In this document: piece after piece, positions 2,650 to 64,000 of the stretch
How positions within the stretch are numbered: position 1 is the stretch's first letter
Layout of the letters: each line of letters opens with the position of its first letter
NCBI RefSeq assembly: GCF_027579695.1
Contig: NC_083569.1
Location: 71,683,149 to 71,747,148, forward strand
Direction: 5' to 3'
Origin: Neoarius graeffei
Taxonomy: Eukaryota > Chordata > Actinopteri > Siluriformes > Ariidae
DNA: 64,000 nucleotides
Position numbers and translations under genes: made by a program
Notes under the pieces: model-generated
Databases searched by the model: none
What the model was told of the DNA's origin: nothing
The model's input: the letters and a program-made list of their open reading frames with translations, nothing else

Positions 2650-2834
2650 AAATGCACCGTTCCCAGAAGTACTGCAATACCGGGTCGATGCGTGGAGTGG
2701 ATGGAGCAAGTCCCTATTCCATCTCCCTGTCCCAAAAATCAATTTAATATATGGTCCCCAGGTAGGGGACATATCAGATATTAAACTAAGAACAGATAAT
2801 ACACTTCATCTTAGCCAAAAGGCCGAGAAACAAT
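2650..2834 (-). pseudogene. RNU2: U2 snRNA copy 1 (decayed)
   Basis: Read on the minus strand, this follows vertebrate U2 snRNA from its 5' end (ATTGTTTCTCGGCCTTTTGG) through the Sm site ATTTTTGG to the 3' stem-loops (CTCCACGCATCGACC.GGTATTGCAGTACTTC). U2 base-pairs with the intron branch site through GUAGUA. Here that element reads GTATTA, and three bases after it (the GAT that aligns with GATAAG) are missing, so this copy should not support splicing. A 3'-box-like AAAAACAGA follows the 3' end at about 2625-2635. Identification rests on recall of the U2 sequence. Confidence 0.88.
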
Positions 2835-3097
2835 ACTTTAGCTGATGAACGATGAGGGATATCCTTCACTACACAACACACAAGGACTGAAGATAATGCT
2901 TTATTCACTAAACCGTTAATAAAATATAAAAATCACATAATTACCATGTAAACAGCCCAAAGGAGATGCAATAAACACAAATTTACAGCTTTAAAATGCG
3001 CACACAAAGAAGGAAATGAGAATGAGTTCACAAACTGGCCAATCAGAAGGATACAATCTCATCTGTACTAAAAAACATTGTAGTCTTTTCTAAATAA
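2835..3097. other. U1-U2 intergenic spacer, left piece
   Basis: No gene is seen. The stretch matches the spacer to the right of U2 copy 2 (22059-22322) almost throughout. It is cut at 3097 by the LINE-B insertion and resumes at 10389. The last 13 bases (CTTTTCTAAATAA, 3085-3097) are the target-site duplication of that insertion. Confidence 0.7.
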
Positions 3098-3640
3098 GGT
3101 TTAGAAATTTTCAGGGCAGTGGCTAGACTTTGCTTGGAGCCGGTCTAGAATGGAGACGTAAGGCACCTCCTTCCCACCACTAGACTGGGTGGACACCTTG
3201 GGCAAGCGTTAGTACACCCTTAGCCCCCCTAGACCAGGGATATGGTTCCTATTGCCTTGTAGGCGACTAGGGATAGTCAAAGGCTAAGGGAGTAAACCCC
3301 TACAGAAAAACCCGGAGTGGAGCCCCATGAGGCAGTCTGATGTTACTTCAGTTACTGGCAACTCCTGCAGTCGACCTGGTCCCAAACGTATTGGTTATGC
3401 CTTTCCTTTGGACCCTACCAGCAAGACCGAGAGGTGGATTCTGGGAGATGGGCAAACCAGTCTCTCCTCACACACAGCCCTGGCTAGCGCCTGGAGAGGC
3501 AACTTCAGCGTGTCGCTTGGCTCTGTCTGACACAAATCAAACCGAGGAGTGTGCAGTTACCGGTTAAAAGTCATGGCTAAATTGGCATATGGCCTGACGC
3601 CTGGGGCCACTCCTGACAGTAGGAGGGGCTGTTAGCCCCA

Positions 3641-4426
3641 TTGGATAGCTACCACCCACTGAAACTGGGCAGCCCCCAGTCAAGAAAGTGCTTCCCGCCA
3701 CCGTCCGCCTGTTCTGCTGGGGTGAGCAGAATTGAAGCCTGGAAACAGACTGACAAGTGGACTGTGACTACTTCACCCAAGAAGAAAGGATCTACCAGGA
3801 AAAGACCAACTCTCACCCTTGAGAGTTGGAATGTTCGAACGATGCTGACCGGCCTGACCAAGGACATACAAAACACTGATGGCCTGTGCAAGACTGCCAT
3901 AATTAGCAGAGAGCTAGAAAGGCTTAATGTCGACATTGCAGCGTTGCAGGAAACCCATCTTGCTGGCTCTGGCAGCCTCAAAGAAAAGGAATACACATTC
4001 TTCTGGCATGGTAAAGGCGAGGACGAACCTAGGGAACACGGTGTTGGTTTTGCTATAAGAAACAAACTTCTCCAGTTAGTGGAGCCTGGCTCAACCATAT
4101 CAGAGCGCCTCATGCACATGAGACTTAACACCGATGAAGGCGTCACAAACCTGCTTTCTGCTTATGCCCCAACCTTGACCTCTACCTTGGACGCCAAAGA
4201 TGCTTTCTACAGCAAGCTCGATGAAACTATTAAATGCATCCTAAAGAATGAGGCCCTGTTTCTTCTAGGAGACTTTAATGCTAGAGACTTTAATGCTAGG
4301 ATCAGGAGTCTTGGCCCATCTGCTTGGGCCACTTTGGTGTTGATAAGTGCAACAAAAATGTGCAGCGCCTGCTGGAACTTTGTTCTTACCATCATCTCTG
4401 TGTCACGAACACCTTCTTTGCTGTGA
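3641..4426 (+). pseudogene. LINE-B endonuclease domain
   Basis: The open frame encodes an AP-endonuclease-like domain: LESWNVRTM (metal-binding Asn), DIAALQETHL (catalytic Glu), GVGFAIRN, SAYAPT and GDFNA. This enzyme nicks the target for target-primed reverse transcription. A perfect 15-bp tandem duplication (4271-4285 and 4286-4300) doubles the GDFNAR motif in frame, and a frameshift follows at about 4300. The expected next residues (SWP.CLGHFGV.KCN) continue in another frame. The region before about residue 55 is poorly conserved leader sequence. Confidence 0.8.
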
Positions 4427-6609
4427 AGTTGTGACACAGGTTCTCGTGGGTACACCCCAGATCCAAACATTGGCACCAGCTGGACCTTATTATCACATGA
4501 CGGGATCATCTCAATAACATCCGCATTACAAGATCTTTTGACAGTGTCGATTGTGACACTGATCACTCCCTTGTCTGCTCAAAGGTCCAGTCGTGCCCAA
4601 AGGAACTTCACCGTGCTCAGAACCCTGCCAAATCTCGCATCAATATTGCTGCAACTGCAATCCCCAGGAAGGTCCTAGCCTTTCGAGAACTTCTCCAAAC
4701 CAAGCTAGAAAATTACCATGCGCTCGGAATAGAGGACCACTGGCAGCATGTTAAAGACGCGACTCCCGATGCAGCAATGCAGGCTTTCGGCAAGAAGGAA
4801 TCCAAAAGTCAAGACTGGTTCAATGCAAACACCACGACTTTGCAACCTCTTATCGAAGCAAAGAGAGTTGCCCTGCAGAATTACTAACGAAACCCTACAC
4901 CACAGTCCCTAGAAGAACTACGTGAGGCCAGAAGACGCGCAAAAGAAAAATGCAAGGAATGTGCTAACGACTATTGGACGAGTCTCTGTGCTAAGATCCA
5001 GGCTGCAGCTGACACCGGCAATGTCAAGGGTTTGTTCAACGGAATTAAGAAGGCCATTGGACCTACACAAGCGAAGTATGCCCCACTGAAGTCGTCAACT
5101 GGAGAGATTATAACTGAAAAGTCTAAACTGATGGAGTGCTGGGTTGAGCATTATAGCAAGCTCTATGGTGGCACCAGCTCCATTTCACCTTCTGCTCTCA
5201 ACCAAATCGAAAGGCTCCCCACATTGTACGAGTTAGATGTGATTCCCACCAAAGAAGAGCTCTCCAAGGCTATCACAGAAATATCTTCCAGCAAGGCTCC
5301 TGGAATAGATGGCATCCCGGCTGAGGTCTTCAAATGTGGCGGAAGCAAGCTCCTTGACACCCTCCATCAGCTTCTCTGTAAGTGCTGGGAGTTAGGATCC
5401 GTCCCACAGGAAACGAGAGATTCCTCTATTACTAATCTGTACAAGAACAAGGGAGACCGTAGTGATCAAAATAACTACTGTGGTATCTCACAACTATGCA
5501 TTGCTGGTAAGCTGTTTGCTCGAGTAGCTTTGCGCTGCCTACAGAAACTCGTCAAGAGGGTCTACCCCGAATCTCAATGTGGTTTCCGTCCCAATCGCTC
5601 GACAGTGGATATGATATTCTCTCTGAGGCAGCTACAGGAGAAAGGTCGAGAGCAACAAAGACCCCTCTTCATTGCCTTTATCGATCTAACAAAGGCCTTC
5701 GACATGTTCAGTAGGGAAGGTTTGTTCAACATCTTGCAATTAATTGGTTGCCCTCCTAAACTCCTCAACTTCATCAAGTCGTTTCACGACGGGACCCGAG
5801 GCACTATTAAATTCGACGGCAACATGTCCGAGGCCTTCGACATTAACAATGGTGTTAAACAAGGATGTGTACTAAGCTCCAACTCTCTTCAACATCTCCA
5901 TTCTCCTGAAACACGCTTTTGGGTCAGCCGATGAAGGCGTCCTACTACGTACTCGATCAGATGGGAAACTATTCAACCCAGCTTGTCTCCGAGCCAAGAC
6001 CAAAGTCCGCAAGTGTATGCTACGCGACCTTCTATTCGCTGCTGCTGCTGCTCTTGTTGCACATAGTGAAAGAGAGCTGCAGACCCTCCTGGACCGATTT
6101 TCAAGCGCTTGTGCGGCATTCAGTCTTACCATCAGCCTGAAGAAGACGAAAGTCATGCACCAAGGCTCTGAAGCCACGCCTACTCTAACCATCAATGACT
6201 ACACCCTGGAAGTCGTCCCACAGTTTACCTATCTTGGTTCCACCACCACTGCAAACGGATCCCTGGATGCGGAACTCGGGAAAAGAATTGGTAAAGCAGC
6301 AACAAACATGATGAAGCTTTCCTCCTGAGTGTGGGAAAATAAGAAACTGACTACCCAGACGAAGATTGCTGTATACCGTGCCTGTATTTTGAGCACCTTG
6401 CTCTATGGCAGTGAATCATGGTCTACCTACGCAGGGCAGGAAAAGCGATTACACACTTTCCATTTAAGATGTCTATGCTGTATCCTTTCGATTAAACGGA
6501 CAGACAAAGTCTCCAACAACAATGTACTCAAGAGATCTGGTGTCCCCTCGCTTTTCACCCTACTCAGGCAATGCAGGTTGAGGTGGCTGGGCCACGTACG
6601 TTGGATGAT
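4370..6609 (+). pseudogene. LINE-B reverse transcriptase and linker
   Basis: The frame at 5032-5934 carries RT motifs APGIDGIPAEVFK, LYKNKGDRSDQNNYCGIS, SQCGFRPNRSTVDMIFSLRQ, FIDLTKAFD (first catalytic Asp) and NNGVKQGCVLS. A frameshift follows at about 5880. In the next frame the palm motif that should read FADD is FAAAAALVAH, encoded by GCT x5 at 6038-6052, so both catalytic aspartates are gone. The thumb (LTISLKKTKVM, FTYLGSTT), KLT.QTKIAVYRACILSTLLYGSESW and RWLGHVRWM follow. One stop separates LSS from VWENKK at about 6326. The protein resumes at 9972 after the LTR insertion. Confidence 0.82.
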
Positions 6610-9600
6610 TGTCACGGCTTGGCTCAAACCATGACAAAGAGGAGGACACGGGGTAAAGTTCAAATAATAATTAATTTATTATAATAACAAAATACAAGAA
6701 AAATCAACAAAGTAGAACGCGTGAACAATGAGCTCGTGCGTGTTACATACAAAAAAAAGAAAAACAAAAGGAAAGAAAACAAAAGAAGCTCCCACAGGAA
6801 ACGGGGAAAAAGTGGTTTTAAGGACGTGGCGACACCGGGCCCAGGTGTCGCCAATTCCCGGGATGGTCTGCAGCCACGCCTACAAGGAACACACACACAC
6901 ACAAAGCAAAACAAACACAGACAAGGCCAGCAGACCATCACACCCCCTCCCACAAAAGCGGGCTCCCAAAATGGAGTCCCGCCCACCAGTCAGGGCTAAC
7001 AAATAAACAGCCATCCCAACAAAATTAAACATAATAGAAATTAATTTAAACATTTAGACACATTAGACCAGCTACTATACAATTATCTAACCCTCTTAAT
7101 AAATTCACAAACCATAACCTGGAGATGTTAACGTCTGTCCCACAGCTCAACACACACAACCCCTCCCCAACTCGGCAACCGGTGCACCTAGGAAGCACAT
7201 TTAAGAGTACAGGAAGGGGCAAAAGGCAAAGAACTGTGAGAGCAGAGAAGTCCACCACGCCTAGGGGGCCCTAGACAACGCGTCTGCCACCACGTTGTCT
7301 GTCCCCTTGATGTGGTGGATATCCAGGCAATAAGACTGCAGGAAGAGAGACCATCTGATTAGTCTCTGATTCGGACAATGTAAAGAACTAAGAAATGTGA
7401 GTGGATTATGATCTGTAAAAACCAATACAGGAGTACTACCACCAACATACACATCAAAATGTTTCAAAGCAAGAACCAATGCCAAAGTCTCCTTCTCCAC
7501 AACAGAATAATTCCGCTGATACGCATTAAACTTTCTTGAGAAGAAGCTAACAGGCTTGTCTATGCCACGCTCATCCTCCTGAACCAGAACAGCCCCTGCA
7601 CCCACAAGACTAGCATCGACAAAGAGCTTAAAGGGACAATCAAAACGTGGTGCTGCCAAAACTGGTGCATCACAAAGGAGCCTCTTCACCTGTTGGAAAG
7701 CCACATGGCAAGCAGGAGACCAGACAAACCTTTCCTTCTCCCTCAAAACATTAGTAAGAGGGGCCACAACCGTAGAAAAGTTCTTACAAAAACTCCTATA
7801 ATAGCCCACAAGACCAAGGAACCGCATCAACTCCTTTTTAGTTGCTGGTACAGGAAACTGCTCAACAGCCCGGACTTTTGCATCAACGGGACGAACCTGT
7901 CCCTGCCCCACCACCCGGCCAAGGTAGGTCACAGTCGCCCTCGCAAACTCACACTTTGCGAGGTTGACTGTGAGCCTTGCCTCCGCCAAACGAGTGAAAA
8001 GTTCCCGCATCCGCTGCATATGAACATCCCAAGTATCTGAAAAACACACTACATCATCTAAATACACCGCACAACCTTCCATATCACCGACAACGCGATT
8101 CATAAGACGCTGGAATGTTGCTGGAGCATTTCGAAGCCCAAATGGCATAACTGAATAGGAATACAATCCCTTAGGTGTTATAAAGGAAGCAATCTCCTGA
8201 GCACGGTCTGACAAAGGTACTTGCCAGTAACCTTTTAACAAATCAAGTTTACTGACAAACTTCGCAGAGCCCACCTGATCTACACAATCTTCCATTCTCG
8301 GAAGAGGAAACAGATCAGGTTTGGTGACGGCATTGACTTTGCGAAAGTCTGTACAAAAGCGTAACATGCCATCTGCCTTTGAAACCAGCAAACAAGGAGA
8401 CGCCCAACTAGAGGAACTAGGTTCGGCTATACCATTCTCAAGCATATATGCAATTTCACTGTCTAGACATTTCAGTTTCTCTGCATTTGCCCGATAGAAC
8501 CTTTGTTTTATTGGCTTAGCATCTCCAACCTCAATGTCATGTTCAATCAGATGTGTACGACCAGGTGTATCAGAGAACAAACAAGGGAAGCTAAGTATCA
8601 GATCTATTAGCTCAGCAGAACGGGATGTGGGCAAGTATGCCAGCAACTCTTCAAGATTAGCAAGGACTTCAGAGTTTTTCAAACAGCCAAGCAAGAGCGC
8701 CTGATCAGGCGCAATAACTTCATCCTCCTGTTGATCACAATAATTGGTGACCCAGTTAGCAGGTCCAGCTACACAAGCTGCTTGCGGAACACTTACTTTT
8801 CAATTAGCACACCTGTAGCGACTAAGTTACTCTTCACAATTGCCTTAACCTTATCCTTCGCAAATTGACCATTTACCTCCAGCTGATAATGCTCTGCTAA
8901 CTTAAGCAGCTGATCCTTCGTACACTGGTCTAATATCTCCTCCGACGGAGAAGCAATAAAATCTTTAACTTCCACCGTCGGCATTATACCGCAGTGCGCA
9001 ACGTTGAACAAAACAAACAAAATTAAGTGTCTGACTCCATGCACAAGCCCACCAAACTGAAAGCCAAACAAAAACAATGCCTGTCCCACTACCTACAAAG
9101 CCCCACAACCTAATTAAGCTGCGGCCTAGCTCTTCATGTAGCTACTGGCGGTGGGTAATTAAGTGCCAAAGCCCAGTAGGGAGAAAAAGCAACCAGAAAC
9201 TGGCGACTCCTCTCACACTATGGAAACACTCCCGAGACAATTGCTCTAACCGCTTTCACTACAACACTACAGAACCCCCCCTGACAAAGTCCAAAGGAAC
9301 AATGCCGCTCCACCTAACAAGGGACATTCATCGCTCATTTAACTCGAACCAGTGCAACAAGTCAAACACTTACCTTATTAAGCGTTGCGCACCGAGGCAG
9401 AGCTTCCAAACTTTACCTCAAACAAAACTGCGCCTCCTCAAACAATAGAGACTTCCCGTTTCATTAGCTCTACACCTGTAACCTGAGCTAAACATAAGGG
9501 AATACCCACTACGAAGTGACATACCTAATGACGACATGCCATTCACAAAATTAACCCGCAACGCTTGCAGACCAAAAAAATTGCATCAAACAATTTAAGA

Positions 9601-9976
9601 AAAAACAAACGGGTTCTAACTTTGACGAGCCCCCATTTGTCACGGCTTGGCTCAAACCATGACAAAGAGGAGGACACAGGGGTAAAGTTCAAATAATAAT
9701 TAATTTATTATAATAACAAAATACAAGAAAAATCAACAAAGTAGAATGCGTGAACAATGAGCTCGTGCGTGTTACATACAAAAAAAAGAAAAACAAAAGG
9801 AAAGAAAACAAAAGAAGCTCCCACAGGAAACGGGGAAAAAGTGGTTTTAAGGACGTGGCGACACCGGGCCAAGGTGTCGCCAATTCCCGGGATGGTCTGC
9901 AGCCACGCCTACAAGGAACACACACACACACAAAGCAAAACAAACACAGACAAGGCCAGCAGACCATCACAATGAT
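6605..9976 (-). mobile_element. Ty3/Gypsy-type LTR retrotransposon fossil nested in LINE-B
   Basis: Two LTRs of 333 and 334 bp (6610-6942 and 9638-9971) begin TG and end CA and are bounded by the 5-bp target duplication ATGAT (6605-6609, 9972-9976). The LTRs differ at only about 1% by eye, so the insertion is young relative to its neighbours. The element reads on the minus strand. A primer-binding site resembling the tRNA-Pro class (TGGGGGCTCGTC) abuts the right LTR, and a purine-rich tract abuts the left one. Recognisable parts are a short gag-like N-terminal segment (about 8793-8985) and a reverse transcriptase plus RNase H region (7261-8694). The internal region is only about 2.7 kb, so the copy is incomplete and broken. 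Confidence 0.92.
7261..8694 (-). pseudogene. Gypsy-type RT/RNase H region of the LTR fossil
   Basis: This part of the fossil shows the Ty3/Gypsy reverse transcriptase signature (ADGMLRFCTDFRKVN, FPLPRMED, YLDDVVCFS) and the RNase H start (KLFVDASLVGAGAVL) with FTDHNPLTFL and DNVVADALSRAP near its end. It belongs to the broken element at 6610-9971 and has no host function. Confidence 0.9.
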
Positions 9977-10375
9977 GGACGGTCGAATCCCAAAGAACCT
10001 CCTTTACAGCGAACTGGAATACGGTTCAAGGCCCGTGGGTCGTCCGAAGCTTTGCTTCAGGGACCTATGCAAGAGAGATATGATTGCAATCGGCCTGGCT
10101 GTTGATAACTGGGAGCTGCTTGCCGCAGATCGCGCCAGATGGAAGACCAGTTGCAGCGTGTCCCTTGAAGCAGGAGAGAGGAGGATAAGGAACAAGGCTG
10201 TGGCGTAAAAGGAAAGAAGAAAGGTGGCTAGAAATGCTCCGCCAACATCGGATTTCGTGTGCGTTGGCTGTGGTCGACCCTGCCGTTCAAGGATCGGGCT
10301 CTTCAGCCACAAGAAGCGGTGTCATCTCTTGCGCTAAAGTCATGGACATGCGTCCGAATGACAGCCTACTACTTA
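9972..10375 (+). pseudogene. LINE-B C-terminal region with zinc knuckle
   Basis: The LINE-B protein resumes directly after the Gypsy element (MDGRIPKNLLYSEL, RPVGRPKLCFRDLCKRDM, LAADRARWK). After one stop at about 10207, a different frame encodes the C-terminal finger FVCVGCGRPCRSRIGLFSHK, followed by KRCH (10254-10325), with stop TAA at 10335-10337. The Cys/His spacing resembles the terminal finger of this LINE family. The 3' UTR is only 38 bases and there is no poly(A) tail. Confidence 0.8.
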
Positions 10376-10388
10376 CTTTTCTAAATAA

Positions 10389-10497
10389 ACATACAATGTA
10401 CTTAAACATGTTTTAAAATGGATAAAGCTATATTAAACGTGTACTGTTCAATACAAGATCAAAATGTCTCAGATTAAAATTACAAATAAGTTGCCTC
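10389..10497. other. U1-U2 intergenic spacer, right piece
   Basis: This is the continuation of the 2835-3097 spacer after LINE-B. It matches 22323-22430 with a few substitutions and ends where a SINE begins. No gene is seen. Confidence 0.7.
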
Positions 10498-10871: not shown

Positions 10872-11460
10872 AAAACCTGTAATTTGCTAACACCGAGCAA
10901 AGACATGTCTGAATCCTGAATGACTCCTATTTGTATAAATAGGGACTAAATAGGCGGCAAAATGTAGTTGTCATTTTTTTACTGTTCATTTGAATGCTTA
11001 GACTGGACTAGGCAGGGCAATCTATTAGCACACCAGCCCCAACAAGAACTTTTTTTTTTTTTTCACCGGCCGCTACTGGTTGTTTGCCTCTGTGTGTCAG
11101 CCCTGTGATGACCTGGTGACTTGTCCAGGGTGTACCCTGCCTCTCGCCCAGTCAGCTGGGATAGGCTCCAGCTTGCCTGCGACTCTCTAGAACAGGCTAA
11201 GCAGTTATGGATAATGAATGTTTTTTTTTTTTTTTGATGGCCAGTTAATGGTCCAAATCAATGGAGCAGATGTTAATTTTTGTGCTTGATACATTCCTAA
11301 GACTGAATAAAATTACCTCAAGTGATCAAACCAGTTCATCACAATGGGTAAATGGTTCTCCCCCCCAACACACAAATTTCACCACGGTTCTAAAACTGCC
11401 TTTGAAAACATCGTTATCTGGTTTTTATTAAGAAGTACAATCATGACATACATAGACATT
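10872..11460. other. No gene; SINE 3' fragment and T-runs
   Basis: No coding signal is seen. A 3' piece of type A SINE lies on the plus strand at 11077-11220 between two T-runs (11050-11063 and 11221-11235). The rest, including 11236-11460, is unassigned, apart from a short match (GTACAATCATGACATACATA, 11437-11456) to the truncated U1 junction at 13008. Confidence 0.6.
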
Positions 11461-11660
11461 CCTATTGAGGTATTTCACCTGACGTCACAGGGTCACGTGA
11501 CGCCCCGGTGTCCACCATTTTGGACGGCAAGCTAGCTAATGTCAACAACAATAGCTAGTATGTTACTGTAGCAATATTTACGTTCAGTCATTTGGATGAC
11601 TGTTAAAACCTTTCAGTCTCAAGTTTTTCCTTTACTGGATTTACTAGTTTACTGAGCTAG

Positions 11661-11828
11661 CGCGCGATGGCTCCCGGCTCGGCCGGCGAGCGCGCGATGG
11701 CTCCCGGCTCGGCCGGCGAGCGCGCGATGGCTCCCGGCTCGGCCGGAGAGCGCGCGATGGCTCCTGGCTCGGCCGGAGAGCGCGCGATGGCTCCCGGCTT
11801 GGTCGAGCGCGCTAGCTCAGTAAACTAG
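11661..11828 (+). repeat. 30-bp minisatellite, 5 units, in frame as (MAPGSAGERA)n
   Basis: Five 30-bp units (11661-11810), each starting CGCGCGATGGCTCCCGGCTC, form the loop of a large palindrome. Thirty bases is ten codons. From the ATG at 11667 the repeat is open and reads MAPGSAGERA repeatedly, ending at TAG 11826-11828 (53 residues). Units differ by one to three bases, the last being the most diverged. There is no evidence that it is translated. The extreme GC content contrasts with the AT-rich surroundings. Confidence 0.7.
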
Positions 11829-12130
11829 TAAATCCAGTAAAGGAAAAACTTGAGACTGAAAGGTTTTAACAGTCATCCAAATGACTGAACGTAAACATTG
11901 CTACAGTAACATACCAGCTACGATGTTGTTGACATTAGCTAGTGCTAACAGCTAGTTGCTAATACACTGCTACAACTACACCGACCCTAATAATACAGTT
12001 CTTGGTCATTGCCTGGTAACAGCAAATTTATAACGGGCCATGTCTCAACAGACTAAGAAGTTATTTCAATGACATTTAATAACATTTTGTTTATCCTGAG
12101 GACCGAAAGTAAATGAAAATGTGAACAAAC

Positions 12131-12478
12131 CTTAGCTGTAATCAGATGGCGACCACCGGCTCCAGGGACGACCCACTGATGTAGGCATGTTACCCAGCCT
12201 GACACAAAATATTTGTAGGCATCCAAACTCTTATACGCTTTCAGATCAATACCTGTGTATGGCGATGGGTTTTTAACGACATAGGTATACAGATCATGTG
12301 GGCCGAAGTCAGGTAAAGACGAGGGCTTCGTGTACTTCCGTACGTCAGTGAGCAATCCTGGTGGAAGCAGGTAAACGTCGTTCTCTAAGCCTGCTAACCT
12401 CAATTTTTGCAAATACCTCTCCCTCTGCTCACCCTGTAAATGCCCTACGTCGCTGGATAGTGAAGGTGTTTTCTGCAT
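12131..12478 (-). pseudogene. Isolated exon like the N-terminus of fish SWIM/YqaJ-domain proteins
   Basis: From the Met at 12478 the exon reads MQKTPSLSSDVGHLQGEQ..., then NDVYLLPPGLL, HDLYTYVVKNPSPYTG, LKAYKSLDAYKYFVSGWV and HLITAKV, ending in a phase-0 donor (AAG/GTTTGT at 12131). The DLYTYVVKxPSPYTG...LKAYKSLxAYKYFxSGWV block is one I recall from large fish gene families whose later parts carry SWIM zinc-finger and YqaJ-type nuclease domains. Those domains are absent here. The frame stays open upstream to 12622. It is probably cargo or coding remnant of the TIR element around it. Confidence 0.5.
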
Positions 12479-12602
12479 CTCGCTCCTTTTTCTTTTATGT
12501 TTTTCGTTTGTCGCCTTCCTCACATTCAAACTGATTCGAGCCGTGCCGTCCAAAATGGCAGCATCACATGACTTGGTCACGTGAGTGAAATACCTCAATA
12601 GG

Positions 12603-12930
12603 TGAACTTCCGCGGAATACAAAAAAAAGTCACGAGACTGAAAATACTGCTTAGATTTGTTGAAATTGACACGAGCATGCCAAAATTATGGGAGTGCCAG
12701 AAAATACCCTCAGACCCCAGAATCTCATGATATAATTAATTATTAATATATAACTGATCTGTTACTGTGTTGTATTCTAGTGTATTACATGAGCTATAAT
12801 GACAACCCACATTAGTATTTCCAAAAAAAAGCATATAGATTACTTACTTAAACAGTTAATAAGTCTTAAATTGCACTCTCAAGAAACACTGAAAAGAACA
12901 ATAGAAAAAACAACGCTATTATTTGTTTTT
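12603..12930. repeat. U1 spacer repeat R, copy a
   Basis: This is the first of four copies of an AT-rich spacer starting near GGTGAACTTCCGCGGAATAC, then AAAATACTGCTTAGATTTGT, and ending just before a U1 3' box. The other copies are at 13025-13330, 13740-14199 and 17508-17815. No gene is seen. Confidence 0.65.
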
Positions 12931-12942
12931 ATACAGTGAAAT

Positions 12943-13007
12943 CAGGGGAGAGCGCGAACACAGTCCCCCACTACCACAAGATTCCCACATCCGGGGAATT
13001 CGCAGGG
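12943..13007 (-). pseudogene. U1 snRNA 3' fragment, copy a
   Basis: The minus strand holds the last stem-loop (GTGGGGGACTGTGTTCGCGC...CCCCTG) plus part of the stem III region (GGGAATCT-like). The 5' half of the gene is replaced by unrelated sequence. The Sm site AATTTGTGG and its neighbours are lost by a deletion of about 14 bases. It cannot make U1. Confidence 0.85.
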
Positions 13008-13024
13008 TACAATCATGACATACA

Positions 13025-13645
13025 TACGTTACTGTAGGTGAACATCTGCGGAATACAAAAAAAAAGTCACGAGACTGAAAATACTGCTTAGATTTGTTGA
13101 AACTGACAGAGAATATCAAAATTGTAGGAGTGCTAGAAAAATAACTTCAGAGTCTCATGATAAAATTGTTAATATATAATTAATCTATTACTGTGTAGTA
13201 TTCTAGTGGGTTTCATAAGATCTAACTAACAGCAGCACATAAGTATTTGAGAAAAAACTATTACTCAAACAATTAATAGATAACAAACCACACTCGCAAA
13301 TTAGAAACCACGAAAAAACTTTAAGACGTCAAAATCATCTGTTTTTGGGCCAATTCACCTCAAATGGCTTGATTTCAACTGAATTTTTCTGGTATTGCGC
13401 AAGGTAAAAAAAATTGCACAAAATGTGACAGATATTTGACCAAAGTTTAATATAAAATAGGAGAATTACATTGATCTCGCTCCTGAATTTACCCAAGATG
13501 TGCCCTTTGCCCCTGTGCATTGTTAACATCATAAAAAGCTAAGCAAAGTCTTCCTTAGATTATCTTCAATTATAGACTATTCTTTCACAAAAAAACCCCC
13601 CAAAACTCAAAAACAACACATTTATCTGCTTTTATACAGTGAAAT
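13025..13645. repeat. U1 spacer repeats R (copy b) and X (copy b)
   Basis: 13025-13330 is a second R spacer. 13331-13645 is a different spacer, X, which recurs at 24181-24488 in front of U1 copy e (both contain CAATTCACCTCAAATGGCTT and a 3' box TATAAAAGCAGA). No gene is seen. Confidence 0.65.
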
Positions 13646-13725
13646 CAGGGGAGAGCGCGAACGCAGTCCCCCACTACCACAAATTATGCAGTCGAGATTC
13701 CCACATCTGCGGAATTCTCGCAGGA
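13646..13725 (-). pseudogene. U1 snRNA 3' fragment, copy b
   Basis: The minus strand keeps the 3' stem-loop, the Sm site AATTTGTGG and the sequence CTGCATAATTTGTGG, but it stops matching U1 after about 80 bases. It joins the R-spacer junction GTTACTGTAGGTGAAC seen also beside copy a. The same breakpoint style in both fragments suggests one truncated unit that was later duplicated. Confidence 0.85.
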
Positions 13726-13739
13726 AACAATTACGACAG

Positions 13740-16822: not shown

Positions 16823-17507
16823 ACAAAATGTCTTCATTTGTGACTCTTTATTTACAGTATTCATTTTTTGTTTGTTTTTGTGGGTTTTTGTATTTTGTGT
16901 ACACAGTATACACAGCGTATACATTTTCCTTTTTATTGTTCCCTACCTACAGTAATGTGTACAATTCACGTTAGCTGAGAATAAAAATGAAAATTCCTCG
17001 GCAGAATGAGTGCAGCGTGTGTGTGTGGTGTGAAAACTGTATTCCTATAGTTAGACATATGCCATGACAAAGCGTCTAAGCATTTTGACTCGCAGTACTT
17101 ACACAATACCAAAGGGACAATGCATTTTGGAGGCACTGACTAGTTATATGAGAAGGGAATGTAGTTTTGACAGATGGGTAAACTGTTTTGGGAGCTGTAC
17201 AAACATTGCCAGGTGATCCATGTAGTTGTGCTGTCCCATCCAAGTTATTTTGACAGAAGAACTGAATGAATGAAAATGTGCCAAAGCAATTGAGAAGGAT
17301 TTATGCCATTTTTATGGTACTGACTATTTAGATGGGAAAGGGATTTCATTTTGAAGCATGGATGAGTAGTTTTGGGAGACAAATGACATTTTGCTGGTTA
17401 TCTGAAGTGTTGTGCAGAACTGTAAGTCTGTTTGGCCAAATTGCCTTATAGTTATGAGAATGTCATCTCAGTTTCAAGAAATGAGCCAAACCAATGGAGA
17501 AAAACTG

Positions 17508-17815
17508 TAAAAAAAAAAAAAAGCATGAGATTTTAAAAATATTACTTAGATTTGTTGAAATTGACAAAACATGCCAAAATCATAGAAATTACAGAAAATA
17601 CCCTCAGACCCCAAAGTCTCATTATGTAATTAATTATTAACATACAACCTATTTATAACTGTTATATTTTAGTACATTTCTTAAGCTATAATTAATAGCT
17701 ATCATAGCAACTCTTAAAACCTAAGCTATTATTCAAAGAAGAAAAACTTCTATATAGTATGCTCGTTAAGACAAATAACACGCGACAGATTAATCGAAAA
17801 ACAAACAAAAAAAAG
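17508..17815. repeat. U1 spacer repeat R, copy d
   Basis: This is the R spacer between the DD35E element and U1 copy d (TTAGATTTGTTGAAATTGAC near its start). Together with copy c it is one spacer split by the transposon or two adjacent copies. No gene is seen. Confidence 0.6.
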
Positions 17816-17818
17816 GTG

Positions 17819-17830
17819 TCTGTTTTTATA
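17819..17830 (-). promoter_or_regulatory. U1 3' box, copy d
   Basis: TATAAAAACAGA on the minus strand lies about 10 bases past the U1 3' end and fits the snRNA 3'-box pattern (AAARNNRGA core) that directs 3' processing by the Integrator complex. Confidence 0.6.
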
Positions 17831-17839
17831 CAGTGAAAT

Positions 17840-18002
17840 CAGGGGAGAGCGCGAACGCAGTCCCCCACTACCACAAATTATGCAGTCGAGATTCCCACAT
17901 TTGGGGAATTCGCAGGGGTCAGACAGCCGGAGTGCAATGGCTGAGCCTCGCCCTGGGTGAACCACCTTCTTGATCATGGTATCTCCCCTGCCAGGTAAGT
18001 AT
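17840..18002 (-). ncRNA. RNU1: U1 snRNA gene, copy d (full length)
   Basis: The 163-nt sequence starts ATACTTACCTG, which pairs with 5' splice sites. It carries the U1-70K loop GATCAAGAAGG, the U1A loop ATTGCACTCC, the Sm site AATTTGTGG and the terminal stem ending TCTCCCCTG. Human U1 is 164 nt; the one-base difference lies in stem-loop II. All key elements are intact, and the sequence is identical to copy e at 24489-24651. A candidate PSE sits upstream and a 3' box downstream. It is probably a functional pol II snRNA gene, though expression cannot be judged here. Confidence 0.93.
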
Positions 18003-18697
18003 GAGTTCACAACCCACTGCCGAGCGCCGCCACCACCACACACACTCTTCACCATCATGGTGAGGATAACATTTCCCATGATGCACTGCTCCTGACCATA
18101 TACGGAGAGCCACGCTTTTCCGGAAGTAGTTCTTCACTCCAACTTGATCACTCAGTTCACAATTGGTAAAACAAATCTTTCCACATTCTACTTCGAGAGA
18201 CAATATAACATTTGGCATGATCTTGCAAAACAAAAATGATGAACTCTAATGTAATTCCATGTTTGGCCATTTTTTTTTAAATACACAAGAACAGTATCCT
18301 GAAATCATCCCCCAAATTTGTTTCTTTCTTGAACGAGTTTAAATGATACTTAAGAGTCTTTAAATGTGTAAAAAGGTGCAAAAGCAGAAAGATTGATATT
18401 TTAAAACATTTTCCCACTGAACTAGATAACTGAGATAAAACCATTTCCCCCTTGGACACGTTTTTCTTAATTGTTCATTTTCTTGTGTGTTTTCTTTTGT
18501 CTCCCCCTTCTGTCCATGGATATCTTTAACTACAGCATTTCATACATAATTTATTTTCAATTTTGTAGCGTATTATAAAAGCTGTTTATCCAGGATTTTT
18601 ATTAGATTGTTCCCTTTGATAACTTCTCTGTTCTTTCCTATATTTAGTAGGATAACACGATATTATACTATATTGGTTTTGTACTTTCAATAAAGAC
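18003..18697. other. U1 upstream block shared with copy e
   Basis: Apart from the PSE candidate this holds no gene. The block is nearly identical to 24652-25340, showing that the U1 gene was duplicated with about 700 bases of upstream DNA and the adjoining LINE-A tail. Confidence 0.7.
18044..18065 (-). promoter_or_regulatory. Candidate proximal sequence element of U1 copy d
   Basis: On the minus strand, CTCACCATGATGGTGAAGAG spans about -63 to -42 from the U1 start, where the SNAPc-binding PSE of vertebrate U1 genes lies. It resembles the human U1 PSE as I remember it (GACCGTGTGTGTAAAGAGTG). Copy e has the same element with one substitution. Confidence 0.45.
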
Positions 18698-20094
18698 TCA
18701 AGATTCAAAGATTTTTTATTTTCAATTCACTATATATCCAGGACATATAGGAGAATCGAAATGCTGTTTCTCTCTCACCTTACAGATAAAAAATATTTAT
18801 ATTAAGAAAAATTATATATATATATAGATAATATAGGTAAAAATACACTAAAATCAAACAATGTACAAAATAGCAGTAATGCAAATACAGTACAGTATCT
18901 GTAACGGAGAAGGTGCTTAGAAGAGCAGCTTATGAGGTGTACATGAGCAGTAGTGCAAATGAGCAATAGCAGCAGATACAACAGGAATGCAAATGATTGT
19001 AGTGTGATGTGCAAACGGATGAGATAGAGTTTCTTGTGTGAATTAATGTGTTACAGACCAGGGGTAGGTAGAGGACAGAATTCAGTACCCTTACAGCTTG
19101 GTGGATGAAGCGATTCAGTAATCCTGTGGAGCAGGCCCAGAGGCTCCAGTACCTTTTCCCTGAGGGCAGGAGGCTGAAGAGTGAATGTGAAGGGTGGGAG
19201 GTGTTCCCAGTGATGCTGATGGCTCTGCGGGTGAGACAGGAGTAATAGATGTCCGTAAGGGAGGGATGAGGGGTACCAGTGATCTTGCTGGCCGCGTTCA
19301 CTATGCGTTGCAGAGTCTTCCGGCAGGAGGCACTGCAGCCTCCGTACCACGCAGCGATGCAGCCAGTGAGGACACTCTCAATGGTGCCCCTGTAGAAAGA
19401 GCACATGATGGGGGGTGGGACTCGTGCACTCCTCAGTTTGCGGAGGAAGTAAAGGCGAGTTTGAACCTTCTTGGCCAGTGATGCGGTGTTGTTGGACCAG
19501 GAGAGGTCCTCAGCGATATGCACCCCTAGGAATTTGGTGCTGCTCACCCTCTCCACTGCAGCACCGTCGATAGTCAGAGGGGGATGCTTTGAGTGACCCC
19601 TTCTGAAGTCGACCACAATCTCTTTGGTCTTTCCCATATTCAGGAAGAGATTGTTGTCTTTACTCTACTGGACCAGTTGGCTCACCTCATTCCTGTAGTT
19701 GACTTCACCTTTGTTAGTGATGAGGTCCACCACAGTCATGTCATCCGCAAACTTGATGTGGTTGGTGCTGTAGATTGGTACACAGTCATGGGTGGATCAA
19801 CGGGGTGAAGAGCAGCAGGCTGAGCACACACCCTTGTGGGGCCACTGTGCTCAGCATGATGGTCCTGGAGGTGTTACTGCTGACCCGAACGTTCTGTGGC
19901 CTTCCTGTAAGAAAGTCCAGCACCCAGTTACAAAGAGAGGTGTTGAGTCCCAAATGTCCGAGTTTTTGTATTAGCTGCTGGGGAATGATTGTGTTGAATG
20001 TCGAACTGTAATCCAAGAACAGCATTCGCACCTAGGTGTTCTTTGAGTCCAGATGAGGGAGGGCTGGGTGTACAGCAGTGGAGATAGCATCCTC
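18698..20094 (-). mobile_element. LINE-A copy 2
   Basis: The minus strand encodes the same reverse transcriptase C-terminus as copy 1 ([15 protein letters not shown] at 19990-20031, QGCVLS, VGKTKEIVVDFRRG, TKFLGVHIAEDLSWSNNT, YRGTIESVLTGC). The FADD motif lies outside the longest open frame because of frame breaks near 19660-19800. The 3' UTR ends in a run like AATAAAAAATCTTTGAATCT near 18698-18720, a typical LINE tail. The window-start copy lacks this end. Confidence 0.85.
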
Positions 20095-20577
20095 CTGTTT
20101 TTTATACCAGCATCGATTTCACGTACCTTCGCTTCGTCTCGCTTGTCAACTGTATTCGGCATTTTGAGTAAAAAAGCCGATATGAAAGAGAAACGTATTT
20201 TTGAAGCGCAGCGACGATGAACATGTGCAAGTTTCGATAAAATAGAACAGATGCGGGTACTTTTGTAAGAACTGTTATGATTGGCTTTTGTTCTCTCCCA
20301 CACTCTTGTAAGAACTGTTATGATTGGCTATCATGCTCTCGCCAGCGATGTTTTGGCCAATTACATTGTAGATAACACGTATTCTACCGCGAGACTTAGC
20401 GAGACTAAAGATGGCGAAAATGCAAACATGTAACATCGTCGTACGCTTGAGTATCACGAAGGAACATACCCCAACCCCCCTCAATGAAAAAAAAAAATCT
20501 CAACGGATTTGGCATAATATCGATTTTTGCTCAGAAAAAGCGGAAATCCGCCGAAAAGCGGAAAACTCTCATCTCTG
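20095..20577 (-). mobile_element. Right half of the 1006-2119 TIR element, unit 2
   Basis: The segment matches 1637-2119, including the duplicated CCAAT boxes and the right TIR, and is followed by the same AGTTAC junction (20578-20583). Its left half is missing. On that side it is joined to LINE-A sequence that lies beyond the insertion site. The start codon of the small ORF is at 20162 on the minus strand. Confidence 0.75.
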
Positions 20578-20790
20578 AGTTACAAAGAGAGGTGTTGAGT
20601 CCAAAATGTCCGAGTTTTTGTATTAGCTGCTGGGGAATGATTGTGTTGAATGTCGAACTGTAATCCAAGAACAGCATTCGCACCTAGGTGTTCTTTGAGT
20701 CCAGGTGAGGGAGGGCTGGGTGTACAGCAGTGGAGATAGCATCCTCTATGGACCTGTATAAAGGTATTGTGTTTTAATTTAAAAAAAAAA
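20578..20790 (-). mobile_element. LINE-A fragment repeated after the TIR element
   Basis: The segment repeats 19926-20094 of the same LINE-A and extends to an A-run near 20780-20791, like 2120-2330. The stretch from 20791 to 21108 matches 2330-2649 and is the U2 downstream spacer, including a 3'-box-like AAAAACAGA at 21086-21094. Confidence 0.75.
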
Positions 20791-21108
20791 AAGCCACAAC
20801 AGTTAATCCAGGAGAAGGGAAGCATTTCTCCACAGGACAGAGAGCCCTGATCCTTCACTCGGTTTTCTCACCAACACATTAAACAATGACATGAAATAAA
20901 ACTTACCACTTGGTTCATGTAAAATATGGTGGCGGTTTTACTTAAATCACTACACACAATGAACATAATTCAAAGAAAACTGATGACAGCTCAACATTAT
21001 TAGCTCTTTAAAATAAAAATACACCCAATAGCCAGCATTAACTACACAGATATTCTGGTCACAGACCACTCAAACACTGATCTCTTCTGTTTTTCCACTG
21101 TATGAAGG

Positions 21109-22058
21109 AGGTGCACAGTTCCCAGAAGTACTGCAATACCGGGTCGATGCGTGGAGTGGACGGAGCAAGCCCCTATTCCATCTCCCTGTCCCAAAAATCA
21201 ATTTAATATATGGTCCCCAGGTAAGGGACATATCAGATATTAAACTGATAAGAACTGATACTACCAGGACCACCATAAAACCATTAGCCTCTCTTTACAA
21301 AATGGCTTTAAAGATTTTGGATAAAAAGCCAAGATATTACCATCATTGTGCTATTATATCAAAATACAACATGCTGTCCTTTGAGAGTTTTATTTGTTTT
21401 GCTCATATGTGTTTATTGTATAAACTTTTCCATGATCTTGCACCATCACCTCTTAGGCAGTGTATATCACTGTGCAGAGACAATTTAAGAGTTTCAAGGT
21501 CCTCTGTGAGAGGTGATTGCTATGTGGGTTATAGGAAAACTTCCTTTGGTCAATCAGCTTTTTCTGTTAGTGCAGCTGAAAAATGCAATGCAATTCCAGT
21601 TCACATTAGAAACAGTGCAAGCTTTAGCCAGTTTAAATTATCATTAAAGGTATGGCTTAAGGCTAATCAAATATGTGATCATTAATCAGTGTGCTGTTTT
21701 ATAGTAAGTATTGTGAAATGGTATGTGTATTGTTTTATATGACGATGTCTATTGTTGTATGTGTGTTGTTTTTATGTGATGATGTGATAGTATATGTTTT
21801 TTATATGCTTTAGTATGATGCATGTTTTAGAATGCTGTTGCTATTTTAGTGTGTACTTCATATTGGCAACAGTAAGTCATGTGTGTATGTTTGTGTTTTT
21901 ATAGCTCCCTGCCCAGGGACCACAGACGCAAATTAGCTTTCTAGCTAACTCTGGTACTAGCGATGTCTTGTACATGGTCCCTGTCAAATAAGCTAATAAA
22001 CTAAACTAAACTAACTAAACTACTACACTTGATCTTAGCCAAAAGCCCGAGAAGCGAT
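21109..22058 (-). pseudogene. RNU2: U2 snRNA copy 2, split by a LINE
   Basis: The two halves (21109-21264 and 22021-22058) together follow U2 closely. The 5' end ATCGCTTCTCGG, the branch-pairing GTAGTA and the Sm site ATTTTTGG are present. The gene is broken at GTAGTA by LINE-C, which duplicated TACTAC (21259-21264 and 22021-22026). One base differs near the 5' end (CGGGCTTTTGG where vertebrate U2 has CGGCCTTTTGG). Confidence 0.9.
21265..22020 (+). mobile_element. LINE-C: 5'-truncated non-LTR retrotransposon inside U2
   Basis: From the 5' junction the frame reads RTTIKPLASLYKMALKILDK, then RYYHHC and FGQSAFSVSAAEKCNAIPVH, and stops at 21685. This is the extreme C-terminus of a jockey/Rex-like reverse transcriptase ORF. 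A 3' UTR of about 335 bases ends in CTAAACTAAACTAACTAAAC. The 6-bp target duplication TACTAC flanks it. The coding remnant has no stop before its natural end, so the insertion may be young. Confidence 0.75.
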
Positions 22059-22489
22059 ACTTTAGCTGATGAACAACGAGGGATATCCTTCACTACACAA
22101 CACACGAGGACTGAAGATACTGCTTTATTCACTAAACCGTTAATAAAATATAAAAATCACATAATTACCATGTCAACAGCCCAAAGGAGATGCAATAAAC
22201 ATAAATTTACAGCTTTAAAATGTGCACACAAAGGAGGAAATGAGAATGAGTTCACAAACTGGCCAATCGGAAGGATACAATCTCATCTATACTAAAAAAA
22301 CATTGTACTCTTTTCTAAATAAACATACAATGTACTTAAACATGTTTTAAAATGGATAAAGCTATATTAAATGTGTACTGTTAATACAAGATCAAAATGT
22401 CTCAGATTAAAATTACAAATAAATTGCCTCCTGGTGGCCAAATGTGGTACTGCAGGTTGGAGTGAAGCGGCCATTTTATGTGTGGAGGA
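22059..22489. other. U2 upstream spacer, unit 2
   Basis: No gene is seen. It matches 2835-3097 plus 10389-10497 of unit 1 and includes the LINE-B empty site at 22310-22322. Beyond 22430 it continues as TGGTGGCCAAATGTGG..., which recurs at 26829 in unit 3. Confidence 0.7.
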
Positions 22490-24180: not shown

Positions 24181-24488
24181 AGGCGGACCAATTCACCTCA
24201 AATGGCTTGATTTCAACTGAATTTTTCTGGTATTGCGCAAGGTAAAAAAAAAAAAATTGCACAAAATGTGACAGATATTTGACCAAAGTTTAATATAAAA
24301 TAGGAGAATTACATTGATCTCGCTCCTGAATTTACCCAAGATGTGCACTTTGCCCCTGTGCATTGTTAACATCATAAAAAGCGAGGCAAAGTCTTCCTTA
24401 GATTATCTTTAATTATAGACTACTCTTTCACAAAAAAAACCCCCAAAACTCAAAAACAACACATTTATCTGCTTTTATACAGTGAAAT
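24181..24488. repeat. U1 spacer repeat X, copy e, with 3' box
   Basis: This is a near-copy of 13331-13645. Its right end carries the U1 3' box TATAAAAGCAGA (minus strand, 24468-24479). Confidence 0.7.
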
Positions 24489-24651
24489 CAGGGGAGAGCG
24501 CGAACGCAGTCCCCCACTACCACAAATTATGCAGTCGAGATTCCCACATTTGGGGAATTCGCAGGGGTCAGACAGCCGGAGTGCAATGGCTGAGCCTCGC
24601 CCTGGGTGAACCACCTTCTTGATCATGGTATCTCCCCTGCCAGGTAAGTAT
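24489..24651 (-). ncRNA. RNU1: U1 snRNA gene, copy e (full length)
   Basis: This copy is identical over all 163 nt to copy d by my comparison, with the intact 5' ATACTTACCTG, protein-binding loops, Sm site and 3' stem. The candidate PSE is at 24693-24714 (one substitution from copy d) and the 3' box at 24468-24479. The flanks have diverged slightly while the RNA has not, which is consistent with purifying selection, gene conversion or a recent duplication. Confidence 0.93.
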
Positions 24652-25511
24652 GAGTTCACAACCCACTGCGGAGCGCCGCCACCACCACACACACTCTTCA
24701 CCAGCATGGTGAGGATAACATTTCCCATGATGCACTGCTCCTGACCATATAAGGAGAGCCACGCTTTTCCGGAAGTAGTTCTTCACTCCAACTTGATCAC
24801 TCAGTTCACAATTGGTAAAACAAATCTTTCCACATTCTACTTCGAGAGACAATATAACATTTGGCATGATCTTGCAAAACAAAAATGATGAACTCTAATG
24901 TAATTCCATGTTTGGCCAATTTTTTTTTTAAATGCACAAGAACAGTATCCTGAAATCATCCCCCAAATTTTCTTTGTTGAACGAATTTAAATGATACTTA
25001 AGAGTCTTAAAATTTGTAAAAAGGTGCAAAAGCAGAAAGATTGATATTTTAAAACATTTTCCCACTGAATTAGATAACTGAGATAAAACCATTTCCCCCT
25101 TGGACACGTTTTTCTTAATTGTTCATTTTCTTGTGTGTTTTCTTTTGTCCCCCCCCTTCTGTCCATGGATATCTTTAACTACAGCATTTCATACATAATT
25201 TATTTTCAGTTTTGTAGCGTATTATAAAAGTTGTTTATCCTCGATTTTTATTAGATTGTTCCCTTTGATAACTTCTCTGTTCTTTCCTATATTTAGGAGG
25301 ATAACATATTATACTATATTGGTTTTGTACTTTCAATAAGGACTCAAGATTCAAAGATTTTTTATTTTCAATTCACTATATATCCAGGACATATAGGAGA
25401 ATCGAAATGCCATTTTTCTCTCACCTTACTTGTAAGAACAGAAAAAATATTTATATTAAGAATATATATATATATACACACACAAGTTATACTAGATTAT
25501 GATGTTACCAT
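24652..25511. other. U1 upstream block and LINE-A tail, unit 3
   Basis: 24652-25340 matches 18003-18697. 25340-25455 is the 3' end of a LINE-A copy on the minus strand whose body is missing. A TA/CA run follows at 25458-25485. No gene is seen. Confidence 0.65.
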
Positions 25512-25893
25512 AGGGGCGGCACGGTGGTGTAGTGGTTAGCGCTGTCGCCTCACAGCAAGAAGGTCCTGGGTTCGAGCCCCGGGGCCGGCGAGGGCCTTTC
25601 TGTGCGGAGTTTGCATGTTCTCCCCGTGTCCGCGTGGGTTTCCTCTGGGTGCTCCGGTTTCCCCCACAGTCCAAAGACATGCAGGTTAGGTTAACTGGTG
25701 ACTCTAAATTGACCGTAGGTGTGAATGTGAGTGTGAATGGTTGTCTGTGTCTATGTGTTGCCCTGTGATGACCTGGCGACTTGTCCAGGGTGTACCCCGC
25801 CTTTCGCCCGTAGTCAGCTGGGATAGGCTCCAGCTTGCCTGCGACCCTGTAGAAGGATAAAGCGGCTAGAGATAATGAAATGAGATGAGATGA
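25512..25893 (+). mobile_element. Type A SINE, GATGA tail
   Basis: This is a full-length type A SINE. The target duplication GATGTTACCAT is at 25501-25511 and 25894-25904. Confidence 0.92.
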
Positions 25894-26046
25894 GATGTTA
25901 CCATATTGGTTTTGTACTTTCAATAAAAGGTGTTTTAAAAAAACAGTTGATCCAGAAGAAGGGAAGCATTTCTCCACAGACAGCCTGATCCTTCACTCGG
26001 TTCTCACCAACATTTTTTTTATGGCTTGGAAACCACTACAGCTTGC

Positions 26047-26222
26047 GCCAATTACAGTGACCCCATTGTACAATCCGTATGTCTTTGGACGGGTGGGCGA
26101 ACCCTCGCAGACACGGGGAGAACATGCAAACTCCACGACAGAAAGACCCCTGTCGGCCGCAAAGTTCGAACCCATAACCTTCCTGCTGTGAGGCGACAAG
26201 GATGATAACTACACTGCCACAC
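26047..26222 (-). mobile_element. Old SINE head fragment in the U2 downstream spacer
   Basis: The SINE body and head are diverged (CACGGGGAGAACATGCAAAC, CTGCTGTGAGGCGACA). The flanks 25905-26015 and 26223-26430 match the U2 downstream spacer of units 1 and 2, so the SINE entered unit 3 separately. Confidence 0.75.
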
Positions 26223-26430
26223 AGTGACATGAAACAAAATCTACCCCTTGCTTATGTAAAACATGGTGGGATACATACAGAAAATACATTATCAAGGAAA
26301 ACTAATGACAGCACAACATTAAAAGTTCTTTAAAACAAAAATATACCCATGCTCAAAATTAACTTACACATATATTGTAGTGACAGATTATCTAAACACT
26401 AGTCTTTTTCGTTTTTCCACTGTATAAAGG

Positions 26431-26618
26431 AGGTGCACTATTCCCAAAAATACTACAATATTGAGTCAATGCGTGGAGTGGCCAGAGCAAGCCCCTATTC
26501 CACCTCCCTATTCCAAAAATCAATTTAATATATGATCCCTAGATAGGAGACGTATAAGATATTAAACAGATAAAAACAGATACTACACTTGATCTTAGCC
26601 AAAAGGCCAAAAAGCAAT
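26431..26618 (-). pseudogene. RNU2: U2 snRNA copy 3 (decayed)
   Basis: Its 188-nt length equals human U2. GTAGTA and the Sm site survive, but many scattered differences from the other copies (several of them C-to-T or G-to-A type, e.g. CTTTTTGGCC near the 5' end and TCAATATTG in place of CCGGTATTG) affect stems. It is probably an old pseudogene. The right spacer 26619-26890 matches that of units 1 and 2. Confidence 0.85.
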
Positions 26619-36646: not shown

Positions 36647-36648
36647 AC

Positions 36649-58026: not shown

Positions 58027-64000
<5,974 letters not shown>

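Follow-up and report, generated by a model that had tools for sequence, protein, structure and literature searches.

Genes for the spliceosomal U1 and U2 small nuclear RNAs (snRNAs) lie side by side in a 64-kb stretch of the genome of the fish Neoarius graeffei (2.34 Gb in 38 contigs), at positions 71683149-71747148 of contig C1 (NC_083569.1), and we refer to this whole stretch as the window. Our reading, to which we give a probability of about two in three, is that the window takes in the right-hand side of a linked U1-U2 locus in which the U1 genes, of an isotype here called S, are under selection and the U2 genes that were duplicated along with them are dead. Most U1 copies are kept nearly unchanged in both their RNA and their promoter.

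Rfam cmscan was run over the full window, with a looser threshold for 1-30000, and returned five minus-strand matches that exceed the gathering score: two of U1 (RF00003, 164 bits each) and three of U2 (RF00004, 116.5-153.3 bits). A preliminary description of this DNA had counted three U2 and four U1 copies, the latter comprising two whole genes and two 3' fragments, and had seen the whole U1 copies as intact and every U2 copy as altered; the Rfam matches bear out the count, and Rfam and alignment together bear out the contrast in condition. Along the plus strand the order is U2, U1 fragments, U1, U2, U1, U2. In the same scan 5S and U5 stayed below threshold throughout the window, and ARAGORN found no transfer RNA (tRNA) genes in it. 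The U1 genes with their promoters and the U2 copies, the latter labelled W1 to W3, are as follows (nt, nucleotides):

2647-2834, minus strand: U2 copy W1, a pseudogene (Rfam 153.3 bits)
17840-18002, minus strand: intact-looking U1 gene of 163 nt, isotype S (Rfam 164 bits, model 1-166 of 166)
18003-18122, minus strand: promoter of this U1 gene, with Staf/SPH-like and PSE (proximal sequence element)-like blocks common to copies at loci A and B, described below (alignment)
21106-21264, minus strand: U2 copy W2, nt 33 to the 3' end (Rfam match 21106-21284, 116.5 bits)
22021-22058, minus strand: U2 copy W2, nt 1-38, with C to G in stem I (below the gathering score, and by reading)
24489-24651, minus strand: intact-looking U1 gene of 163 nt (Rfam 164 bits, model 1-166 of 166)
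24652-24771, minus strand: promoter of the second U1 gene (alignment)
26428-26618, minus strand: U2 copy W3, a pseudogene with many substitutions, several of which unpair stems (Rfam 143.9 bits)

Beyond the window, fifteen stretches of 10 kb each were scanned with Rfam around its own locus (locus A) and a sister locus (locus B), and the genome was searched for U1 and U2 with only the best candidates scored, so that all copy counts are lower bounds. Locus A, at C1:71.62-71.71 Mb, is palindromic in part. Its segment 71631886-71653204 recurs inverted at 71662802-71688486, in three blocks with identities of 96.2, 98.0 and 95.8%, and the 2-4% by which the arms differ argues against an assembly duplicate. 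Genes mirror one another across it (U2 71634383 and W1; U1 71638112 and 71682080; U2 71639332 and 71680898; U1 71651735 and 71664145), and near its centre four U1 copies follow in succession with no U2 between them. With the arms inverted, the units do not all share one orientation. Further units, which the preliminary description suggested looking for to the left of the window, are present there as this inverted copy, and they carry plus-strand genes; the preliminary picture of genes on a single strand therefore holds inside the window and fails beyond its left edge, and that of a tandem array gives way to a partial palindrome in which some duplications are direct. Readings such as "one strand" or "tandem", when taken from a 64-kb window, can reverse once the flanks are seen.

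Locus B, at C1:73.69-73.75 Mb, has six U1 copies on both strands and two U2 copies; because the stretch examined there starts only a short way left of the first U2, there may be further copies beyond it on that side. The fifteen stretches contain 12 U1 and 7 U2 copies, one of them W1, and the addition of the window brings these to 14 and 9. The 42 scored matches of U1 comprise 14 at C1:71.638-71.708 or 73.69-73.754 Mb, a further 17 at C1:19.5-30.8 Mb, and 11 in other places. A DNA query made of U1 and its promoter also found, on C2, diverged copies that carry a promoter, at 5.86 Mb (91%, Rfam 125 bits) and 6.87 Mb (88%), and a search of viral contigs for U1 and U2 patterns, by exact match only, found none. 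A further S-type locus lies at C8:69.90-69.99 Mb, where one U1 with an extra stem-loop II base and an altered Sm site has six 3' pieces of U2 (115-121 bp, 92-93%) near it.

The two whole U1 genes of the window are letter-identical, and both retain the 5' end, the Sm site, the promoter blocks and the 3' box. The promoter blocks align in 13 of the 14 U1 copies at loci A and B; we take these flanking elements to be the Staf/SPH, PSE and 3' box of U1 genes. In the fourteenth copy, 71658499, the promoter is interrupted, for which reason it was left out when the 14 copies were aligned and compared as 78 pairs of 13. Over these pairs the RNA differs by 0.011 on average, the promoter by 0.073 and the stretch from -250 to -121 by 0.22, and downstream the figure is 0.29 for +1 to +37 and 0.58 farther out; that for -330 to -251 is 0.49 (66 pairs), the distant flank being partly non-homologous, which inflates the largest of these figures. 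"Decayed", the term of the preliminary description, fits the U2 copies and does not fit U1, of which 13 of the 14 copies compared differ by a mean of just 1.1% in the RNA. The window pair shows 0/163 RNA differences against 25/835 in the flank (P about 0.007), the mirror pair 71651735/71664145 differs at 1/163 positions, and 5/14 copies, spread over loci A and B some 2 Mb apart, are identical. U1 at these loci is probably made by RNA polymerase II from the conserved promoters.

By eye, 9/9 of the U2 copies that loci A and B yielded look damaged, the lesions being deletions, a replaced end, a long interspersed element (LINE), many substitutions and a 10-nt duplication (73726709); two mirror pairs of U2 share lesions. 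None of W1, W2 and W3 has an intact core, that is, the branch-recognition site and stems without insertion. In W1 the branch-recognition site GUAGUA has become GUAUUA, stem IIa has a 3-nt deletion and GAUC reads GAUG, and these lesions are also found in its mirror partner at C1:71634383; W1 keeps 37/45 model base pairs, as compared with 42 in a U2 copy from the large array discussed below. W2 does not end at 21284, and is split after nt 38 by a 756-bp LINE 3' end (21265-22020) flanked by a 6-bp target duplication, TACTAC. The linked U2 genes thus probably yield no functional U2. W1 and W2 differ by 0.058 in the RNA, 0.038 upstream and 0.011 downstream; for W1 and W3 the figures are 0.170, 0.183 and 0.250, and for W1 and the locus-B U2 at 73.727 Mb 0.106, 0.142 and 0.370, so recent U2 pairs appear to be free of constraint and older pairs to retain a trace of it.

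Several observations weigh against this reading. Not every U1 copy is kept: the mirror pair 71638112/71682080 differs at 4/163 positions, about as much as its arm (3.8%), and 71682080, which scores 153.9 bits, looks released from constraint. An insertion of about 109 bp parts the two promoter blocks of U1 copy 73753906, and U1-S is without one stem-loop II nucleotide that is present in the C8 copy and in the other isotype, M. In the older U2 pairs the RNA differs less than the downstream flank, which implies constraint for part of the time, and between W3 and the locus-B U2 (73.727) the difference in the RNA, 0.105, exceeds the 0.081 found upstream. A locus-B U2 scores 178.5 bits with the 10-nt duplication as its main lesion, and a solitary, nearly intact S-type U2 at C21:22.29 Mb scores 176.3 bits; in view of these two copies, S-type U2 may not be extinct. 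Outside loci A and B no better S-type U2 was found than the C21 copy, whose upstream 60 bases are common to none of the 40 scored matches. Moreover, the homogeneity of U1 could partly be due to gene conversion.

In its strongest form, this last point would have gene conversion alone homogenize the U1 copies, without selection, which we regard as unlikely. Clustered, palindromic copies are a setting in which conversion is common, the U1 copies are both clustered and palindromic, and their RNAs are identical between loci A and B. However, long conversion tracts would not produce a promoter that differs by 7% next to an RNA that differs by 1.1%, the U2 genes of the same palindrome are not preserved intact, and the U1 mirror pair with four differences has not been homogenized. 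It is also quite improbable that an old U1-U2 array is decaying as a whole and that its U1 genes are intact by chance or through recent duplication. The many transposon insertions, the U1 fragments, the three dead-looking U2 copies of the window and those U1 copies that drift like their surroundings would suit such an array, but the U1 RNA differs by 1.1% on average where the region at -250 to -121 differs by 22%, and the five identical copies are shared between two distant loci.

We consider it very improbable that target-specific transposons broke these genes, Dada-U1 in U1 and Keno or Utopia in U2. The U1 fragments stop at nt 86-87, adjoining the Dada-U1 insertion site CTGCGAAT (PMC3706591), and the LINE in W2 follows nt 38, which is the published Keno and Utopia insertion border in U2 (PMC4640811). 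A Dada-U1 insertion would place a transposon end by a duplicated GCGAAT, but the sequence at the U1-fragment junctions is the interior of a dispersed repeat. A Keno or Utopia insertion would be a U2-specific LINE followed by U2 from nt 39, but the LINE in W2 is antisense to U2, the six other copies that were read (6/6) have non-U2 flanks, and 0/17 of its places elsewhere (14 of them full-length and 3 partial, 96-99% alike) coincide with any scored U2 place. Transposons would on our reading be bystanders that caused some of the breaks.

The U1 remnants outnumber those of the preliminary description, as two extra pieces of 3' box plus flank were seen by eye:

about 12944-13006, minus strand: U1 3' fragment A, from nt 86, with an internal 13-nt deletion (below the Rfam gathering score)
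near 13057-13340, minus strand: U1 3' flank with 3' box, the U1 itself gone (by eye)
13646-13723, minus strand: U1 3' fragment B, from nt 87 (below the Rfam gathering score)
near 13766-14080, minus strand: U1 3' flank with 3' box, the U1 itself gone (by eye)

The fragments are taken to have arisen when the 3' part of U1 was duplicated in tandem together with its flank and some of a dispersed repeat that ends in CCCCAGAGGGTTAA; for this repeat a first look at the genome gave 157 candidates, 40 of them scored. Fragment A is joined to the interior of the dispersed TTAA repeat, and part of the shared spacer 3' of U1 is dispersed repeat with a TTAA end. A 26-nt resemblance to the 3' end of 18S ribosomal RNA at a fragment junction is taken as chance, because by eye the copies of the dispersed repeat are less like 18S at that point.

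Elsewhere in the genome, near full-length U1 and U2 copies of both isotypes directly precede the 5' end of a complete-looking tRNA-like short interspersed element (SINE), at C8:60389816, C28:52763400, C10:25468926, C3:66871452, C14:40429712, C16:10693722, C26:24814273, C4:81359759, C29:1381746 and C20:12956324. These copies look like template-switch retrocopies, and those of 163-nt U1-S (C8:60.39, C28:52.76) suggest germ-line expression of U1-S. With up to 2 mismatches allowed, 24 occurrences of the U1-M end followed by TCACATAATT were counted (control 0). No target duplication longer than 7 bases was found at 13 solitary snRNA copies, over the 70 bases past the snRNA and not past the SINE. 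Another pattern, which required the U1 3' end to lie no more than 30 bases from where the SINE starts, gave 43 matches (control 0) and was not used, because CTCCCCT is short, the SINE is abundant and few of the matches are U1-like. The SINE joined to snRNA copies is also common in the window, for example at 25513-25890. Solitary SINE-fused copies thus exist in the genome, but that the locus is merely a store of retrocopies is hardly credible, as its copies have 3' boxes and promoter blocks and share long flanks, and the SINE-fused copies examined have none of these.

The isotype M belongs to a large array at C1:18.9-30.8 Mb, about 12 Mb of U1-M, U2-M, U5 and tRNA genes that resembles the maternal block of zebrafish Chr4R. 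U1-M, from the array at C1:19-31 Mb, is 164 nt long and U1-S, the window type, 163 nt. Compared in one copy each, they differ at 24/167 alignment columns, and the differences recur across aligned array copies. Over 46 Rfam base pairs five changes are two-sided and still pair and two are one-sided; two pairs are peculiar to M and S has none of its own, the totals formed being 43/46 in S and 45/46 in M. We presume that S is the closer of the two to human U1. U2-S (the C21 copy) and U2-M (an array copy) differ at 35/192 columns, with 12 changed pairs of which five are two-sided, three one-sided, three formed only in M and one in neither. Compensatory pairs in U1 and in U2, one copy of each compared, thus point to two structurally maintained isotypes. 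The array at C1:18.9-30.3 Mb carries 36/46 scored U2 matches, at 156-187 bits; no window U2 copy is among the 46, the lowest listed entry having 154.6 bits. Two 10-kb array stretches scanned with Rfam hold U1, U5, tRNA and degenerate U2 copies (80 and 89 bits), with no 5S or U6. Several array U2 genes form opposite-strand pairs about 2 kb apart, as is likewise seen at C18:6.15 Mb.

The history that we propose would begin with an ancestral U1-U2 pair that, as the sequence shows, was duplicated both directly and as a large inverted repeat, with the sister locus 2 Mb off. Lesions in U2 would then have accumulated, most likely before the inverted duplication, as they are common to two mirror pairs, although later gene conversion could also have shared them between mirror U2 copies. 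The loss of U2-S may have been tolerable since the M isotype would supply U2 from the array on the same chromosome, and functional U2 most likely comes from there. If zebrafish, Xenopus and mouse are a guide, S would be somatic and M maternal, the type of the oocyte or embryo. As a tentative extension, for which we would not claim even odds, S and M may be two co-evolved sets, each with linked U1 and U2, of which S lost its U2 and kept its U1, so that the spliceosome would pair U1-S with U2-M. If true, this would be a natural experiment in which isotype systems are uncoupled gene by gene, and the palindrome perhaps helps to preserve the survivor. The linked snRNA genes of a single locus appear to have parted ways, with U1 for the most part retained and the adjacent U2 decaying, and with the second array on the same chromosome this offers a testable case of two sets of spliceosomal RNAs in one genome, one of which has lost a partner.

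U1 and U2 are adjacent with shared spacers, as in the linked loci of teleosts. Self-BLAST of the window confirms the spacers and the LINE-A fragment that had been described as common to the units, at 78-98% identity: 1-1005 with 18923-19931 (94.6%), 1637-2802 with 20095-21264 (96.9%), 2782-3097 with 22007-22322 (93.1%), 10376-10497 with 22310-22430 (97.5%), 17819-18826 with 24468-25476 (95.8%), 13347-13724 with 24185-24565 (95.8%), 2424-2943 with 26221-26726 (79.4%), 22325-22487 with 26727-26885 (81.9%) and 20883-21264 with 26221-26586 (78.3%). The spacer parts and inserted elements are:

1-1005, minus strand: LINE fragment (LINE-A) with a reverse-transcriptase match (self-BLAST, Pfam)
1637-2646, no strand assigned: U2 3' flank, about 97% shared with 20095-21105 (self-BLAST)
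2835-3097, no strand assigned: U2 upstream region, shared with 22059-22322 (self-BLAST)
3098-10375, no strand assigned: insertion dividing the U2 upstream spacer, a LINE holding a long terminal repeat (LTR) retroelement (self-BLAST, reading)
10376-10497, no strand assigned: continuation of the U2 upstream spacer, matching 22310-22430 (self-BLAST)
11454-12603, no strand assigned: DNA element lying within a copy of the TTAA repeat, its inverted ends CCTATTGAGG..CCTCAATAGG (by eye)
14199-17511, plus strand: DNA transposon with inverted ends (by eye)
18923-19931, minus strand: second copy of the LINE-A fragment (self-BLAST)
21265-22020, plus strand: 5'-truncated LINE 3' end in W2, antisense to U2 (0 Pfam families)

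We take LINE-A to be Rex1-like, the transposon at 14199-17511 to be Tc1/mariner-like and the LINE in W2 to be L2-like. The LINE within 3098-10375 has an apparent 13-bp target duplication, and direct repeats at 6609-6942 and 9637-9971, 99.1% alike, are taken as the LTRs of the nested retroelement (6609-9971), which is probably a recent insertion. The inverted-end element at 11454-12603 contains a GC-rich 30-bp repeat (11659-11799, 4.7 copies, 97% matches), and two 382-bp SINE units lie head-to-tail at 36263-37023 (94% matches). The frames 41294-41764 (plus), 47306-47716 (plus) and 61081-61464 (minus) look by eye like TMEM88-like exons and BCL6-like zinc fingers, of which Pfam confirms the zinc fingers only: among six window frames searched, two matched (zinc fingers; reverse transcriptase) and four did not, including two TMEM88-like frames and the LINE inside U2.

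Known systems resemble this locus in part, among them the zebrafish maternal snRNA block of PMC11075544, which cites Pagano et al. 2020. The linked U1-U2(-U5) genes of teleosts are published for European hake, where a 1211-bp U2-U1 amplicon holds a degenerate piece of U2 (PMC4696792), and are cited for soles (Soleidae; PMC3464664). U1-U2 linkage is thus not new, and with such genes published for several teleosts the earlier suggestion that it is easily missed is a weak one. The present locus shares this physical linkage, but unlike those of hake and soles it is multi-copy, part-palindromic and specific to one isotype, and such U2 copies as it yielded appear damaged. Neither a palindromic U1-U2 locus nor selective loss of U2 with two isotypes was found among the open-licence PubMed Central papers listed by the literature searches, and a palindromic arrangement with two isotypes, in which U1 survives and U2 does not, may be new. 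The zebrafish block (Chr4R Region-2) crowds maternal U1, U6 and 5S genes with many tRNA genes (PMC11075544), and the array on C1 is like it in being a large block of snRNA and tRNA genes on one chromosome, with other types elsewhere; it differs in that 5S and U6 were not found in the two 10-kb stretches. Developmental U1 isoforms in Xenopus and mouse (PMC4291461) likewise give more than one U1 isotype per genome, as compared with which the 24 of 167 columns reported here separate one S and one M copy. Finally, U6 chimeras with LINEs and SINEs arise by template switching (PMC4476161) and SINEs with snRNA heads are named SINEU (PMC8010984); our fused copies are like these in joining an snRNA to a retroelement, and unlike them in that U1 and U2 of both isotypes sit before the 5' end of a tRNA-like SINE that looks complete.

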